This document shows positions 28,716 through 37,437 of a stretch of DNA of 46,067 nt, piece by piece (within the stretch, counting starts at the first letter, position 1; every line of letters starts with the position of its first letter). Under the pieces are notes generated by a model that saw only the letters and a list, made by a program, of their open reading frames with translations, made no database searches and was not told the origin of the DNA. Position numbers and translations under genes: made by a program. The DNA comes from a virus. The stretch is from positions 1-46,067 of IMG/VR virus record IMGVR_UViG_3300018933_000008; one strand, written 5' to 3'.

Positions 28716-28750
28716 CCACCCCCAAACACCCCCAAACCAAAGGAAACGCA

Positions 28751-28941: not shown

Positions 28942-29883
28942 ATGTCTGAATCCACTGGTGACGCTGAGCTGCTGCCTCTAGATGAGGTGCAGCTCGCGTC
29001 GCCTCCTCCCAAGATCGTGCTCAGCCCGGGCGTCTATACCGACGTCCCCGCAAGCCTCTACCATTACGACCCTTGCGGCGGGGCGCCCGTCCTGAGCGCA
29101 TCCATTGCGAAGATTCTCGTGACCGAGTGCCCGCTTTCGGCGTGGGCTGCGCACCCGCTCTTAGGCGGTGGGCTTCATGCAGTTTCGGAGGCCATGGAGC
29201 GAGGTACGATTCTGGACACGTTGCTGGCGGGCGGTGAGGCCGCCTTTGCCGATCTCCCTTACGCCGAGTTCAGGACTAACGAGGCGAAGGCCGCGCGCGA
29301 CGGGGCGATAGCCGAAGGTCAGATCCCGATGCGCAAAGGGCAGCTAGATGAATGGCGAGAAAAGGCAAACACCATCCGCGGGCGCTTCGCTGCTCGTGGT
29401 GTCGTGCTGTCGGAGTACGAAACTCAAGTCACACTCGTGTGGTATGAGACGGCGACGGACGGCACGCCGGTGTTGTGCAAGGGCCGGCTCGATTATCTGC
29501 GCGGCGCCGACATTGCGGATCTCAAGACCTCCGAAGATCTCTCAGACCGCGCCCTGGCAAATACGATCCTGAAGTTCGGCTACCACATCCAGCGGGCCGC
29601 ATACCTTTCGGCGCTGGGCAAGCTCATGCCGGACATGGCCGGCCGCCACGGTTTTCATTTTCTGTTCGCCGAGCCAACCCCGGCGCACGCCACTCGCTGC
29701 GTCTCGCTTGATGGGATGCTTTGCCAGCTGGGCCGCGTGGAATGGCAGCGTGCGATTGATCTATGGGCGCAGTGCCTGCGGACGGGCCAATGGCCTGATT
29801 ACAACGACACTGAGATCGTGGCGCCGCCTTGGGTGGGAGATCGCATTCTTGCAGCGGGAGGCTCAAGTGCTCTCCCCTTCTAA
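28942..29883 (+). CDS. PD-(D/E)XK exonuclease, DUF3799/RecE-like
   Basis: 313 residues. LSASIAKILVTECPLSAWAA, ERGTILDTLLAGG, Glu158/160 in LSEYETQV, Asp184 in KGRLDYLRG, Asp193-Leu-Lys195 in IADLKTSED and YHIQRAAYLSAL form the core of the Cas4/RecE-type nuclease family common in phage recombination operons. It would resect double-strand ends to give single strands for annealing. AGGAGAG precedes the ATG. The next gene, a RecA-like ATPase, overlaps by 17 bp. Confidence 0.82.
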   Translation: MSESTGDAELLPLDEVQLASPPPKIVLSPGVYTDVPASLYHYDPCGGAPVLSASIAKILVTECPLSAWAAHPLLGGGLHAVSEAMERGTILDTLLAGGEAAFADLPYAEFRTNEAKAARDGAIAEGQIPMRKGQLDEWREKANTIRGRFAARGVVLSEYETQVTLVWYETATDGTPVLCKGRLDYLRGADIADLKTSEDLSDRALANTILKFGYHIQRAAYLSALGKLMPDMAGRHGFHFLFAEPTPAHATRCVSLDGMLCQLGRVEWQRAIDLWAQCLRTGQWPDYNDTEIVAPPWVGDRILAAGGSSALPF

Positions 29884-30847
29884 TCGCAAGTTCGAGTCAC
29901 GTCCTGCGGTGCGCGCGTCGGTCCCGCTGTTCGTGTGGTTGTTCGGCCCGAGCGGAAGCGGGAAGACTTTCTCAGCCTTGCGGCTCGCCACGGGCATGCA
30001 GCGGGTCGCTGGTGGCGATATTTATTTCATCGACTCGGAGGCTAATCGCGCTCTTCACTACGCCGACAGATTCAAGTTTCATCACGTGCCATTCGAGGCG
30101 CCTTTTGGTCCGCTTGATTACATGGATGCTATTCGATACTGCATCCACAAGGGAGCCAAGACGATCGTTACTGACTCCTTCTCTCACATGCACGAAGGGC
30201 CAGGCGGGACGCTTGAGTCACACGCGCAGGAGCTAGATCGGATAGCCGGTGATGACTGGGGGAAGCGCAATCGGAGCACGATGCTCGCCTGGCAGCGGCC
30301 GAAGTCTGAGCTTCGCAAGTTCCTCAACGACCTGACACAAAAGCAGATCAATCTCGTTGGGTGCTTCCGTGCCAAAGAGAAGGTCAAGCTGATCAAGGGC
30401 AAGGATCCAGAGCCGCTGGGTCTGATGCCTATTGCCGGCGATGAGATGATCTACGAAGGCACCGTGTCTTGCCTGCTTCACCCAGGAGCGGGAGGCGTTC
30501 CATCGTGGCACCCGGACGAGCTTGGAGAGAAGGCGATCATCAAGCTTCCAGAGCAGTTCAGATCGCTGTTCAGCGAACGCAAGCCACTTGACGAAGACAT
30601 TGGCGAAGCCTTGGCCAGGTGGGCATCCGGAGAAGCGATGAAGCCGGCTGCGGTTGATCGGGCGCAGGCGCTGGTGGAGTTGTCACAGGCCCTGGAAGCG
30701 AGGGGCTTTAGTGATCCAAGTTCGCGCCTTGAATGGGTAAGCGGCCAGCTTCGGCGCCCGGTGAACGCCCCCAAGGAGATCAAGCCAGCGGAGCTGCCAG
30801 GTTTGGTGCAAGCCGCGAAGAAGATCGGCGAGGGGGTGATCGCCTAA
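29867..30847 (+). CDS. Sak4-like RecA-fold ATPase (recombinase)
   Basis: 326 residues. GTG 29867 is chosen because GGGAGG lies 6 nt before it. Longer in-frame starts would run deep into the nuclease gene. Walker A GPSGSGKT at 27-34, DIYFIDSEAN at 51-60, Walker B-like TIVTDSFSHM with Asp103, and a sensor-like NLVGCFRAKEK. This is the phage Sak4/AAA_24 type, which promotes single-strand annealing, often with an SSB. None is visible here. Paired with the exonuclease as a recombination system. Confidence 0.8.
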   Translation: MLSPSNRKFESRPAVRASVPLFVWLFGPSGSGKTFSALRLATGMQRVAGGDIYFIDSEANRALHYADRFKFHHVPFEAPFGPLDYMDAIRYCIHKGAKTIVTDSFSHMHEGPGGTLESHAQELDRIAGDDWGKRNRSTMLAWQRPKSELRKFLNDLTQKQINLVGCFRAKEKVKLIKGKDPEPLGLMPIAGDEMIYEGTVSCLLHPGAGGVPSWHPDELGEKAIIKLPEQFRSLFSERKPLDEDIGEALARWASGEAMKPAAVDRAQALVELSQALEARGFSDPSSRLEWVSGQLRRPVNAPKEIKPAELPGLVQAAKKIGEGVIA

Positions 30848-31121: not shown

Positions 31122-31548
31122 CGCCCGAACAATGTAGGGAAATGAATGACAACTCATGACTACCAGCTGACCCGCAGAGGCCAAAGCGCTGATCAAATTC
31201 GATCAGATCAAAATCGATCATCCACGTCGCCCTGTCGAGACTTCGCAAAGCAAACAACGGGGTTGGCGCCGGTGCAAGGATCGGACTCGACACAAATCCG
31301 AAGCACATCGGAAATCATCGGCCGCGCCTCTGTTTTATCAATAGATTACCGGCTCCCATGCCAGTCCGCATCGTCCGCGCGGCGCGTTACGCTCCTGCTG
31401 CGCGCCAACATTTTGGAGGTGAAAGTCAGGTTATTGACAGACCAACCTTGGCCAAACGCCAAAGTTAGTTTACGGTGGGCTGGCCAATGCCCCAAACCCA
31501 CAAGAAGTGCCCGGCGGTGCGGCCGTGGATAGACCGACAGGAGACGAG
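31122..31548. other. Gene-free region before integrase
   Basis: 427 bp with no convincing gene. It holds a tandem 15-bp near-palindrome at 31191-31220 and a TTGACA at 31434-31439 with no good -10 box. It is the likeliest place for integrase arm sites, operators or attP, since phage attP usually adjoins int. I could not identify a tRNA-like core. Confidence 0.4.
31191..31220. repeat. Tandem 15-bp near-palindromic repeats
   Basis: GATCAAATTCGATCA (31191-31205) is followed without gap by GATCAAAATCGATCA (31206-31220), 14 of 15 bases equal. The first, with the preceding T, is a 16-bp palindrome but for one mismatched base pair. It contains four GATC-type half sites at regular spacing. It resembles a cooperative operator or recombinase arm-site array. 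Confidence 0.55.
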
Positions 31549-32694
31549 ATGAACCCCGCGACGCGCCTAATGATGGAGGAGTTCGCGGCGATCAAATCCC
31601 ACTTCGGCATCACGTCGATTCCCAGGCCTCGCCTGACGGTGGCGCAGGGATGGGAGAAGTGGCGACCCTTTCTTGAATTCAGGGTTCAGGCTGGGGAGCT
31701 GCGCGATAGCACCAGAAAAAAGATCGAGCTCGCCATGAAGAGCGTGATCCCTTTCTTCGGGCACAAGATCATTGAGGAGCTGCAGCGGTCGGATGTGTAC
31801 GAGTACCAGGAGAAACGCTGCAAACAACCAAACACCAAACACCGCCGAGGAGGGAAGATCAGCAAAGCTACAGCGACCGTGGAAATACGGGCGCTGATAG
31901 CCATGCTCCACGGGCTCAAGGGCGAGGGGTTGATAAACGAGAACCCGCTCGCAGGGATGCCGGTAGACAAGAAGAAGCGGAAGGTCAAGCAACGTCTACG
32001 CGTTTTCACCCCGGACGAAATCAGCCTCCAGCTGAGGACGGCGCGGCTGAAGGGCTACCTGCACCTCGCCGCGGTGATAGCGGTTATGCGTGGATCGGGC
32101 ATCCGCCCCGGCGAGCTAATAAAGCTTCGGTGGGAAGATTACGACAGGGCCAAGGGCGTGCTCATGGTGCCCGATGAGATCGCGAAAACAGCGGTGGCGC
32201 GGGAATGCGTTCTGCTTAGGGAGGGCCTGCAGGCCCTGGAGGAGATCCGACGCCCCGACTCCCCTTGGTTGTTTCCATCGAACTATTCAACCACCCTTGA
32301 TCAGCACATCTCGTACCAGTCGATTGATGAGCAGTGGCGCAAGACCACCGCGGCCAGCGGGATTGCGATGTGCGAGGACGGCAGCCCGCCCATTCTGTAT
32401 TCGCTTCGGCACACCCTCGCCACGGTCCTTGGCTTTGAGCTCCGGTGGGAGGCGCAGATGATTTGTGATTGGATGGGCTGGGAAAACTTAGAACAAGCCA
32501 CCGACTACCTGCACGTCCAAAACGAACACCTGGCGCAGCAGGCTAAGGAGATCGAGGATCGGAACAGTGCTCCACCACGCAAACCTCCGGTGCGCAAGCC
32601 TCCCAGTATGGCCCACATGAAGGATCTTGAAGGTCTTCGTAGGAGCCCAAAGCGGTCAGACGATAACGAAAAAAAGGAGGACGATTCCGATTGA
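31549..32694 (+). CDS. Tyrosine integrase
   Basis: 381 residues, ATG 31549 after ACAGGAGACGAG. A SAM-like core-binding domain (about 35-135) is followed by the catalytic domain: Arg186 in SGIRPGELIKLRWED, box II YSLRHTL (284-290) with Arg287 and Tyr284 where His is usual, Trp311 in DWMGWENL replacing the second His, and nucleophile Tyr320 in ATDYLHV. The last 50 residues are Pro/Lys-rich. It integrates and excises the prophage. No excisionase is obvious nearby. It shows the phage is temperate. Confidence 0.92.
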   Translation: MNPATRLMMEEFAAIKSHFGITSIPRPRLTVAQGWEKWRPFLEFRVQAGELRDSTRKKIELAMKSVIPFFGHKIIEELQRSDVYEYQEKRCKQPNTKHRRGGKISKATATVEIRALIAMLHGLKGEGLINENPLAGMPVDKKKRKVKQRLRVFTPDEISLQLRTARLKGYLHLAAVIAVMRGSGIRPGELIKLRWEDYDRAKGVLMVPDEIAKTAVARECVLLREGLQALEEIRRPDSPWLFPSNYSTTLDQHISYQSIDEQWRKTTAASGIAMCEDGSPPILYSLRHTLATVLGFELRWEAQMICDWMGWENLEQATDYLHVQNEHLAQQAKEIEDRNSAPPRKPPVRKPPSMAHMKDLEGLRRSPKRSDDNEKKEDDSD

Positions 32695-34347: not shown

Positions 34348-35129
34348 GCGCGGCCGGCAGGGGTGCAAGGCGGGGCGGGTCCGATGACTTCTACGTCACT
34401 CCTCATTGGGCCGTCGACCGCTTGCTGGAAAAGTGGTCACCTCCAATTGACGGGGATTTCGTCGAGCCATGTGCTGGCAACGGAGCGATCATGCGCGCGC
34501 TGCGTGGCCGAGGTCTCACGTGGGACCGCGCGACCGCGATCGAATGCCGAGCCAAAGAGTACGACGTGCTCTCAGGCCTATTCGACACTGTGAAGATCGG
34601 TGACTTCCTAGCGGCCCCGGAGCTCTTCCTTCCCGAGGTGGTCTCCACGATCATCACGAACCCGCCGTACATCAAGGCGGAAGAGTTCATAAGAGCTGCG
34701 AGGGCTAAGTTTCCCAACGCCACCTCGGCCTGGCTGGTGCGTCAGGGGTTCTTAGCTAGCGAGGAGCGTGTGCAGCTGTGGAAAGACGTTGGTTCGCCTG
34801 ACGTCTATGTCTTGCCCAATCGACCAAGCTACACGGCCGACGGCAAGACTGATGCCTCTGACTATTGCTGGATCGTCCTGCCGAAGGAGCCGCGGGAACA
34901 CGGCCAATTGGTGATGTTGGGCTCAACGCCGAAAGAAGTGCGTGTCGCCGCGCTCCTCAAGGTGAAGAAGAAAAGGAAGAAGGGGATCGAGACCGCATTG
35001 GCCGCTTTGGAGAAGCAGACGACCGCGCTCGCGCGTCAGCTGGTCAAGACTGAGACCGCGATCGCGGAGATCAAGAAGAGGTTATCAAAGTCGGGCGCGA
35101 AGGATCGATCTGAAAAGGGGGCAGCATGA
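34344..35129 (+). CDS. N6-adenine DNA methyltransferase-like protein
   Basis: 261 residues. DFYVTPHWAVDRLLEKW, motif I FVEPCAGNGAIM (SAM binding, 39-50), an acidic AIECRAKEYD, and motif IV NPPY (106-109) identify an amino-methyltransferase. DVYVLPNRPSYTADGKTDAS follows. The last 70 residues are a Lys-rich coiled coil. It could mask phage DNA from restriction, complementing the Lar-like protein. No partner nuclease is visible. Confidence 0.8.
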   Translation: MSAAGRGARRGGSDDFYVTPHWAVDRLLEKWSPPIDGDFVEPCAGNGAIMRALRGRGLTWDRATAIECRAKEYDVLSGLFDTVKIGDFLAAPELFLPEVVSTIITNPPYIKAEEFIRAARAKFPNATSAWLVRQGFLASEERVQLWKDVGSPDVYVLPNRPSYTADGKTDASDYCWIVLPKEPREHGQLVMLGSTPKEVRVAALLKVKKKRKKGIETALAALEKQTTALARQLVKTETAIAEIKKRLSKSGAKDRSEKGAA

Positions 35130-35449
35130 CGAAGCGCGCCCGCCCTTCACTAGACATCGCCGCTAAGCCGGAAACAGTGGCCATCATGCAAGCCGTTGCG
35201 GCCGCGTACGGCGTCTGTGCTGAGGATCTCACGTTCCAATCCACGCGTGGCGTCCTTCCTTACAGCTCTCCGACTATGCGTGCTCGGCGTGTGGCTATCG
35301 TCGCCCTTTACAAGCAATGGGGCAACGCCAAGGCGATCGCGAAGGTGTTCCAGCGTCACGCTAGCAGTGTCTGGACGGTGCTCAATGGAGCATCAGAGGC
35401 TGAACATGCAACTGCCGGCGAGATCGTCGCGGGGGTTTCGTTCGCATGA
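35126..35449 (+). CDS. DnaA domain IV-like DNA-binding protein
   Basis: 107 residues. VAIMQAVAAAYGVCAEDLTF, SPTMRARRVAIVALYKQWGN and AKVFQRHASSVWTVLNGASE follow the DnaA C-terminal domain: helix, R-x-x-R-A-R-x-x-A, and the H-x-S-V signature. No ATPase domain is attached. It may bind DnaA boxes, regulate host DnaA, or help the phage origin about 800 bp downstream. ATGA-coupled on both sides. Confidence 0.65.
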   Translation: MTKRARPSLDIAAKPETVAIMQAVAAAYGVCAEDLTFQSTRGVLPYSSPTMRARRVAIVALYKQWGNAKAIAKVFQRHASSVWTVLNGASEAEHATAGEIVAGVSFA

Positions 35450-35631: not shown

Positions 35632-35852
35632 TTTTGCTCACGACCATGACACAGCACACGTTGCCTACCGAAAAACATTGCTGCGGCAGGCGCCAAGACC
35701 GCGATGGGGGTTGGTTCGGATCCCTCCGGCACAACACAAGGGCGCTGGCCCTCGTGCCAATCATTGGCGTGTGCAGACATGAGACCCGCGGCGCTCTGGT
35801 GTCTGGGTGGGTCGTGAGCTCCTTTTCTACACACCAAGGAAGGCTCAACTGA
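35628..35852 (+). CDS. Hypothetical 74-residue protein
   Basis: ATG overlaps the previous stop (ATGA) and the stop touches the replication gene. MILLTTMTQHTLPTEKHCCG, WFGSLRHNTRALALVPIIGV, then a Ser/Val-rich end. Three Cys and several His could bind metal. Not recognised. It may serve mainly as a coupling frame. Confidence 0.5.
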   Translation: MILLTTMTQHTLPTEKHCCGRRQDRDGGWFGSLRHNTRALALVPIIGVCRHETRGALVSGWVVSSFSTHQGRLN

Positions 35853-36817
35853 TGGCCGCCAACATCAGCTACAGAACGAAGAGAAGCGACTTCTTCGTGC
35901 ACCCGAAGACTGCGGGGCTCTCCCCTTTCGCACAGTGCCTATGGAACCAGGCGCTATTGTCCAACATCGCGGGCGTGCTGCAGCGAAGCGAGCGCCTGAT
36001 GGCGAAGGTTGGAGCCATGACCGCCGAGCAGGTCCGGAGCGGTATCGCGGAGCTCGAGCAGCGCGGCCTGTGCAAGTACTTCGAGGACGACGAGGTGCTT
36101 TGGCTGATTGAAGCCGCCGACGAACAGGCCACAAATCCCAACGCCTGGAAACACGTATGGGCGGTGGTCGACACGGCGCCGCAGCTCGTGCGTGAAGCCT
36201 TCGAGGTACGGTATTCCCGCGCCGGAGGGAGACCCGCCGCAAAGGGTATCGGATACCCTATCGCATACCCTATTCCGGACCCCCAAACCCAACTCGAAAC
36301 AGCCCTGATCGGACCCCCAAACCCAACTCCGATCACTCAGGAACAAGAACAGGAACAAGAGAAAGAACAGGAACAAGAGCAGGAGCAGGAGAACACACGC
36401 GACCCCTCCCCCCCGGTCCCTCCAGCCCCACCAGCTCCGGTTCTTCACAGTTCCGACCCCCCGCTGGACCGTTGCATCCGCGAGGTCAACGCCGCTCGGG
36501 CGAAGCGAAAGCTGGACCCGATCAGCCGCATGCAGGGCCGCGAGGTGGAAAGCCTGCTGTTCCATGCCCTCGAGATTTGCCAGGACGTAGAGGCCGCATA
36601 TGGGGCCTACCTCCAGCGCGGTGACCAGTGGGACGCCGACCGAGGGTTCCCGATCGCCAAGTGGGCGAAGACGCCAATGCACTGGCTCACCGCCAAGGCC
36701 ACAGTCCGCCGCGTGGGCCACACCCGCGCCGAGGATTTCTCAGCCGAGCACGCCGCCACACCCGAGGGTCCACTGGACCTGAACAAGCTTCGCAGCAACC
36801 GGAGAGCCACGCCATGA
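35852..36817 (+). CDS. Replication initiation protein (lambda O-like organisation)
   Basis: 321 residues, ATG 35852. Residues 5-110 are a winged-helix domain (LSPFAQCLWNQALLSNIAGV, EQVRSGIAELEQRGLCKYFE) typical of phage origin-binding proteins. A low-complexity linker (about 130-205: PIAYPIPDP, PPNPTPIT, then Gln/Glu repeats) is followed by a C-terminal helical domain (MQGREVESLLFHALEICQDV, WAKTPMHWLTA) that probably binds the loader or helicase. The DNA of the linker contains the putative origin repeats. The next gene is a DnaC-like loader, as with O and P in lambda. Confidence 0.75.
   Translation: MAANISYRTKRSDFFVHPKTAGLSPFAQCLWNQALLSNIAGVLQRSERLMAKVGAMTAEQVRSGIAELEQRGLCKYFEDDEVLWLIEAADEQATNPNAWKHVWAVVDTAPQLVREAFEVRYSRAGGRPAAKGIGYPIAYPIPDPQTQLETALIGPPNPTPITQEQEQEQEKEQEQEQEQENTRDPSPPVPPAPPAPVLHSSDPPLDRCIREVNAARAKRKLDPISRMQGREVESLLFHALEICQDVEAAYGAYLQRGDQWDADRGFPIAKWAKTPMHWLTAKATVRRVGHTRAEDFSAEHAATPEGPLDLNKLRSNRRATP
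36244..36395. repeat. Putative phage replication origin (iterons)
   Basis: Inside the initiator gene: palindrome GGGTATCGGATACCC (36244-36258), ATACCCTAT twice at 12-bp spacing (36253, 36265), a perfect 19-bp repeat beginning GGACCCCCAAACCC at 36277 and 36311 (34-bp spacing), then a purine-rich tract of AACAGG/GAACAAG units (36340-36395). In lambda the origin also lies in the middle of gene O, with iterons followed by an easily melted strand-biased tract. Confidence 0.6.
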
Positions 36818-37437
36818 CCACCGAATCCGAGTCCGTGTTTCCTGAAAAACTGCCTCCTGGCAACAGCTGGGAGAGCGCCGAGGATGACGAAAAAGCAAAG
36901 GCAGCCCAGTGGGGCCGCTTTGAAGCGCCGCCACGCCACAAAGAAGCACTGAAGAAGCTCACGTTGCGCCCCACCACGGCGCGAACAGCGTGCGCAAAAG
37001 CGACTGGGACCGTCGTGCTTTATGGCGACTGCGGATGCGGCAAGACCCTTGCGGCTGTGGAATGGCTGCGTGAGGAGGTCATGCGTACTTCCAACAACGC
37101 CCCATCCGCTCGCTTCATCAGCGCGCCAGCGCTCGCACGACTTGATCGCTACGATGACAAAGTGATTAACCCGCTGCTTCGTGTGCGCAGGCTGGTCATC
37201 GACGACCTGGGGACCGAGTACAACGACGCGAAGGGCGCCTTCACGTCGCTGTTTGACGAGGTGATCAACGCGCGACATGCGGCGCGGCTGCCGACCGTCA
37301 TCACCACGAACCTGGGATATGAGGCATTCTCCGAGCGCTACGGCGAGCGTGTGATCGACCGCATCACCGAGTCGGGAGCCTTCACCGCATGCGGTTCTCA
37401 AAGCCTTCGCACGGCTGAACCAAAGGGACGTGGTTAA
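36814..37437 (+). CDS. DnaC-like helicase loader ATPase
   Basis: 207 residues. Walker A GDCGCGKT (71-78), Walker B LVIDDLGTE (127-135) and sensor-like LPTVITTNLG give a compact AAA+ ATPase of the DnaC/IstB class. The N-terminal 60 residues are charged and may contact the helicase. It would load the host DnaB-type helicase, since no phage helicase gene is seen. ATG overlaps the initiator stop. Confidence 0.85.
   Translation: MTTESESVFPEKLPPGNSWESAEDDEKAKAAQWGRFEAPPRHKEALKKLTLRPTTARTACAKATGTVVLYGDCGCGKTLAAVEWLREEVMRTSNNAPSARFISAPALARLDRYDDKVINPLLRVRRLVIDDLGTEYNDAKGAFTSLFDEVINARHAARLPTVITTNLGYEAFSERYGERVIDRITESGAFTACGSQSLRTAEPKGRG

Follow-up and report, generated by a model that had tools for sequence, protein, structure and literature searches.

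The window, by which we mean the whole stretch of DNA analysed here, is a complete IMG/VR virus record of 46,067 bases, and its PHROG matches (large terminase, portal, protease/major head protein, tail sheath, tape measure and baseplate hub) indicate a temperate phage with a contractile tail. An integrase gene, assigned by a PHROG match, lies at 31507-32694, and exonuclease VIII-like and AAA_24 genes occupy 28942-30847. The locus of interest is an initiator gene on the plus strand (35852-36817), which encodes a protein of 321 amino acids with an N-terminal winged helix, a low-complexity linker and a C-terminal domain of unrecognised family. The gene starts with an ATG preceded by AAGGAAGG, with a GTG at 35807 as a possible alternative, and no sigma-70 promoter-like site is found near it. 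Its stop codon overlaps the start of the next gene (ATGA), which lies on the same strand (36814-37437) and encodes a DnaC-like helicase loader with the P-loop of an ATPase (phrog_50, E=7.8e-27). Because no DnaB gene was recognised among the window ORFs tested, the phage probably relies on the helicase of its host. Two further observations concern the surroundings of these genes. A small ORF upstream of the initiator (35126-35446) weakly matches the C-terminal DNA-binding domain of DnaA (PF08299, E=0.0053, below the curated cut-off). Upstream of the integrase gene, tandem 15-mers (GATCAAATTCGATCA / GATCAAAATCGATCA, 31190-31220), which have 8 window matches with at most 3 mismatches against 2.2 expected, may form a repressor operator or an integrase arm site.

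The initiator is not readily placed by conventional means. Single-protein scans return no close relatives, and neither Pfam nor NCBIfam gives a match at E<=1, a DnaD, DnaT or Phg_2220 domain included. The model Phage_rep_org_N (PF09681 / TIGR01714), whose low-complexity region is said to mirror origin repeats, matches neither the window protein nor 9 relatives at E<=1, nor any of the 36 members of family alignment A4 at E<=0.01. The initiator was furthermore not found in the 41 terminase-related records searched, only one of which matched the helicase loader; no close DNA relative could therefore be compared, which we counted against an origin at this locus. The way into a family was instead a weak tblastn match to Escherichia phage Fraca. 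Members of this family occur in Fraca and in Klebsiella, Acinetobacter, E. coli, Streptococcus, Geobacillus, Psychrobacillus and Tenacibaculum phages, where the initiator gene lies directly upstream of a gene for a DnaC-like loader, a DnaB-like helicase, a primase/helicase or another replication ATPase. The family corresponds to phrog_1701, 25210, 12196 and 6251, annotated as 'DnaD-like helicase loader' and 'replisome organizer DnaA-like'.

Several comparisons tie the window protein to this family. A profile of the relatives' N-terminal domains, made without the window sequence, recovers the protein by hmmsearch at E=3.2e-5, against 1.4 for the best of 2000 shuffled versions; hhalign gives a probability of 94% for the N-terminal domain, and phmmer reaches 1.9e-6 between the window initiator and the best of 80 relatives. 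The protein's only PHROG matches are 25210, 12196 and 1701, the last at 0.0032; phrog_1701 is matched by 35 of the 36 members of A4, and the window N-terminal domain alone does not reach 0.001. Structure prediction points the same way: prediction from the single sequence was useless (pLDDT 40), and AlphaFold2 with 35 relatives aligned (36 rows) predicts a winged helix over residues 21-93 (35912-36130, plus strand), with block means of pLDDT of 82-95 for residues 21-90. Searches with this model recover the common fold only, with weak winged-helix matches in the PDB by Foldseek (best E 0.017, MarR-type) and a VIA-align Z of 7.2 to a TFE-type winged helix; the BFVD matches include several named replisome organizers, none at E<0.001. 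On these profile comparisons, the window N-terminal domain belongs to a diverged and widespread phage family of winged-helix initiators. The homology is distant, at about 20% identity and confined to the N-terminal domain, and no relatives of the C-terminal domain were found.

The linker DNA carries a dense array of repeats, which an earlier, sequence-only reading had placed at 36244-36395; that placement holds, although the array begins about 4 bp further left, with an iteron at 36240. Three iterons can be distinguished by their fit to the consensus GAWRGGGYWTC. Iteron A (CAAAGGGTATC, 36240-36250, plus strand) has one mismatch; iteron B (36252-36262, minus strand, reading GATACCCTATC on the plus strand) matches perfectly and is the best or near-best motif site in the window; and iteron C (36264-36274, minus strand, reading CATACCCTATT on the plus strand) lies 12 bp from B and has two mismatches. 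The 12-bp spacing noted earlier is confirmed by a directly tandem pair, TATCGGATACCC (36247-36258) and TATCGCATACCC (36259-36270), identical at 11 of 12 positions. Iterons A and B face each other in a palindrome, AGGGTATCGGATACCCT (36243-36259), which is real and, at 17 bp, one pair longer than the 15-mer originally described. A palindrome of this length arises in 28 of 2000 trials of synonymous reshuffling, which makes it weaker evidence than the repeat that follows.

This repeat, CGGACCCCCAAACCCAACTC, occurs at 36276-36295 and again, as an exact copy, at 36310-36329; what had been taken for a 19-bp pair is thus a genuine pair of 20-mers. Since 3 does not divide the offset of 34, the two copies are read in different frames and encode different peptides (PDPQTQL and GPPNPT). 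No out-of-frame repeat of 20 was obtained in 2000 synonymous shuffles (longest 12) or in a second set of 500 (longest 13), and nowhere else in the window do exact repeats within 100 bp reach this length. It is the strongest evidence inside the window. Of all the genes in the set, only the homologous initiator of Gordonia phage Toast has the core of the 20-mer in its linker, in the form of shared 12-mers. Sharing of this kind arises in 4 of 2000 simulations, and it suggests that the 20-mers may be a second type of iteron. The central 10-mer, ACCCCCAAAC, has four exact copies in the window against 0.06 expected. As a separate observation, the non-coding DNA upstream of the exonuclease VIII-like gene (28717-28737) contains ACCCCCAAAC twice in tandem, and could be a second initiator-binding site.

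Adjoining the repeats on the right is the purine-rich tract of the earlier description, present at 36338-36391 on the plus strand. It comprises 18 codons, mostly for Gln and Glu, is 85% purine and repeats with a period of six bases in CAGGAA-like units; across the 46 kb, on either strand, it is matched only by itself shifted by 1-4 bases. Every third base is an A, so that the complement reads TnnTnnT. By computed stability, no 54-mer in the gene or in the 2 kb around it is less stable than the one that begins at 36325, and the tract is likely to be an unwinding region.

Comparative evidence comes from the family. Two family alignment scans yielded 160 loci, which together with named phages were dereplicated to 73 representative genes. 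Nearly all 73 contain a 6-bp-periodic tract at gene position ~400-520, encoding QE, KE, EE, N-rich, NA or EV/EI repeats. Over a length of 36 nt, 67 of the 73 genes, and none of 751 control stretches, keep one A or T at >=90% of every third position, a periodicity partly due to the encoded amino acids. Directly before the tract stand tandem iterons, mostly spaced at 11 bp: GATACCCTATC or GATACGGTATC in Firmicute-type phages, GAAGGGGCTTC in Klebsiella/Fraca-type phages (inverted in Acinetobacter B1251 and PhiR5_2) and GAAAGGGTTTC in another Klebsiella phage. On one strand or the other, many agree with GAWRGGGYWTC. The 90 nt before the tract hold 93 iterons over 72 relatives, compared with 13.9 (maximum 27) after synonymous codon permutation, and these are spread over all three reading frames (43/29/21). 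As such, the proposal of origin-like repeats in the initiator linker gains support from dozens of homologous initiators with like iterons and a hexamer tract in the same place. Relatives whose linker lacks the repeats would have spoken against it; the outcome is largely favourable, in that at least one iteron (<=1 mismatch) precedes the tract in 60 of the 72 and other branches carry a different iteron at that place, such as ACGATACGT in Geobacillus PK3.6, Clostridioides CD1801 and Bacillus 268TH008.

Two side observations extend this survey. In Oenococcus phage Krappator27 (L279:1486-2385) and Streptococcus phage Javan271 (L111:2486-3346), iteron-like repeats (ACGAATCGTGG, CGATTCG) follow the hexamer tract. 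In Pseudomonas phage KLEP17-4, the gene before the DnaC-like loader (L103:1357-2157) has a 19-bp out-of-frame repeat in its middle, GAACAGCAGGTGAACAGCA, which appeared in none of 500 synonymous shuffles; this gene is possibly the site of another intragenic origin.

The consensus GAWRGGGYWTC was written after both relatives and window had been viewed, and the clean test is a de novo motif trained on 45 Firmicute-type relatives only, from which the window and the proteobacterial relatives were left out. Scanned over the 46 kb, this motif has its best site at 36253, and its sites of ranks 1, 2, 5, 7, 8 and 13 all fall at 36239-36275, the five of these that rank among the top eight lying at 36241-36275. 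Three distinct sites within 36 bp, counted at an 11-bit threshold chosen after seeing the scores, never arose in 300 simulated genomes or in 5000 synonymous linkers. One-mismatch matches to GAWRGGGYWTC in the whole window, by comparison, are at chance level (9 against 9.95 expected); the signal is the clustered, best-scoring set and not the single-mismatch consensus matches. A motif derived from GGGGCTTC-type proteobacterial relatives only does not pick out the window linker.

A rival reading takes the repeats for an operator only: the initiator would bind within its gene to keep its synthesis low or to block transcription, and replication would start elsewhere. Palindromic iterons are typical of operators too; a second type of site with a ACCCCCAAAC core also lies in non-coding DNA, at 28718-28737. 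An operator would, however, be unusual inside coding sequence, some 390 bp past the start codon and fused to a tract that is conserved in relatives, and it would leave the hexamer tract without a role. In many relatives, moreover, the next gene encodes a helicase loader, a helicase or a primase/helicase. We consider it quite unlikely that the array is an operator only.

What the repeats conserve, DNA or peptide, is addressed by the window's iteron-pair pattern (21 defined bases), which matches in only four of 2.9 million viral contigs. All four matches fall inside initiator-type genes, on the complementary strand, and the family profile confirms three of these genes (4.8e-12 to 1.5e-8), the fourth being truncated. 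In loci L286, L287 and L288, a run of the window's own hexamer, (CAGGAA)n, comes after the 12-bp iterons; L285 shows the iterons but no CAGGAA tract, and downstream of the L288 initiator a DnaB-like gene was recognised by sequence inspection. The iterons are read as DRVSDRV in L286-L288 and as GYPIAYPI in the window, and the CAGGAA tract as Gly-Thr rather than Gln-Glu. Because the same iterons and tract are read in another frame, the comparison indicates that it is the DNA, not the peptide, that is conserved. This supports the earlier suggestion that the linker is dictated by its DNA. It also bears on the notion that the linker is a disordered spacer grown by slippage, with the DNA repeats as a by-product of the peptide. 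Simple repeats do slip, initiators often have charged or polar linkers, and within the window Gln/Glu codons explain the tract well; yet the iterons do not belong to the class of simple repeats, the two 20-mers are read in different frames, the CAGGAA repeat specifies Gly-Thr in L286-L288, and the relatives' iterons occupy every frame, so that slippage is a highly improbable account.

In several lineages, a second set of iterons lies in the region encoding the DNA-binding domain itself. In the proteobacterial branch and L288, the recognition-helix codons contain further tandem iterons, with 33 sites against 6.3 expected (maximum 13), and this set may likewise consist of binding sites. Iterons are seen in both recognition-helix codons and linker at L106:2683-2710 and 2938-2965 and at L288 gene positions 187-209 and 397-431. 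In L106 and L288, a copy of the presumed binding site thus seems to encode the very helix that would bind it. The window has a degenerate, iteron-like GGAGCGGTATC (36036-36046, plus strand, two mismatches) in its predicted recognition-helix codons, which is weak. Least probable of all is that the linker is a recombination joint for swapping N- and C-terminal initiator domains: relatives with similar N-terminal domains and linkers do differ in their C-terminal domains (DnaD, Phg_2220, weak DnaT similarity, and in several cases no domain recognised by Pfam or NCBIfam at E<=1), but a joint explains neither the tandem iterons in recognition-helix codons nor the fixed order of iterons then tract in most relatives, and may itself be a side effect of an origin kept there.

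Taken together, 36240-36391 is very probably the replication origin of the phage, situated inside its own initiator gene, a reading well supported by comparison with relatives. The best explanation is a lambda-like intragenic origin on an initiator family in which no homology to lambda O was detected. In such an origin, initiator molecules would bind cooperatively to iterons A, B and C, and probably to the 20-mers too. Once bound, these would distort the DNA and open up the neighbouring purine tract, and the C-terminal domain together with the DnaC-like protein would then load a DnaB helicase, probably that of the host, onto the exposed strand. Transcription through the gene may aid opening, as in lambda. 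With the site inside the gene for the initiator, the two would move as a unit. A GC-skew analysis, which had been proposed as a check, gives no clear origin signal.

A broader generalisation would unite these phages across phyla in one family of winged-helix initiators with a single portable, intragenic DNA origin module. Such a module would comprise 11-12-bp GAWRGGGYWTC iterons, a second set of these in the recognition-helix codons of several lineages, and a hexamer tract in which every third base is A or T; the linker peptide would be a frame-dependent by-product (QE, KE, NA, EV or GT), and the tract may be a strand-specific, single-strand loading platform like DnaA-trios or TnnT. We regard the arguments for and against this full generalisation as evenly balanced. 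A sequence rule of this kind, with an iteron consensus and a hexamer tract that keep a constant position within the initiator gene, would predict origins for many mostly uncharacterised phages, including those whose initiators Pfam and NCBIfam miss. It would also offer a clear case of an overlapping DNA function that dictates protein sequence and, should the tract act as a strand-specific loading site, a design common to phage and chromosomal origins.

Among known systems, phage lambda is the closest in anatomy. Its origin iterons are annotated in gene O, with 6-iteron variants known in Stx phages (PMC7466680). The iterons of lambda O are in unequal reading frames, as are the repeats here. As in lambda, the window has its repeats (36240-36329) in the middle of the initiator ORF (35852-36817), including iterons that are tandem by sequence; an easily melted tract adjoins them, judged by computed stability and purine asymmetry, and a helicase-loader gene follows immediately. 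The earlier comparison with lambda gene O is supported in this anatomical sense and does not extend to homology: the window initiator is related to DnaD-like and replisome-organizer PHROGs, and no lambda O-type family model matches it in Pfam and NCBIfam (E<=1) or PHROG. Furthermore, the window has 11-12-bp iterons of the GATAGGGTATC type in place of lambda's 18-bp iterons, a hexamer-repeat tract in place of a plain AT-rich region, and a loader that is DnaC-like, unlike lambda P. Phage P1 offers a second parallel, in that oriL is postulated to lie inside the initiator gene repL, where synonymous changes in the AT-rich region inhibit replication (PMC9948254); the P1 initiator, RepL, is a different protein.

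The phrog_1701, 25210, 12196 and 6251 initiators (Geobacillus virus E2, Escherichia phage Fraca, Klebsiella prophages) share with the window the homologous N-terminal winged helix and the layout of iterons followed by a 6-bp-periodic linker tract; the gene order is similar in many of these phages, and the iteron sequence is very similar in the Firmicute-type members L203, L209 and L230. The window differs from phrog_1701-type members in a protein without Pfam or NCBIfam match, an unrecognised C-terminal domain, a 60% GC genome, an iteron register of 12 bp (common to L286-L288) instead of 11, and the additional pair of 20-bp repeats. In the origin oriC of B. subtilis, DnaA boxes are accompanied by DnaA-trios, and DnaD recognises the single-strand motif TnnT (PMC10201434). 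The window resembles its unwinding region in that double-strand sites are followed by a tract phased at 3 nt, with TnnTnnT on the complement; a functional parallel to the recognition of TnnT by DnaD is speculation by analogy, no DnaA being known to act here. Set beside these systems, the intragenic origin is of a kind already known. In the open-access literature no description of the family-wide, frame-independent module of iterons and hexamer tract was found, older phage-origin papers in subscription journals being outside the scope of that search.
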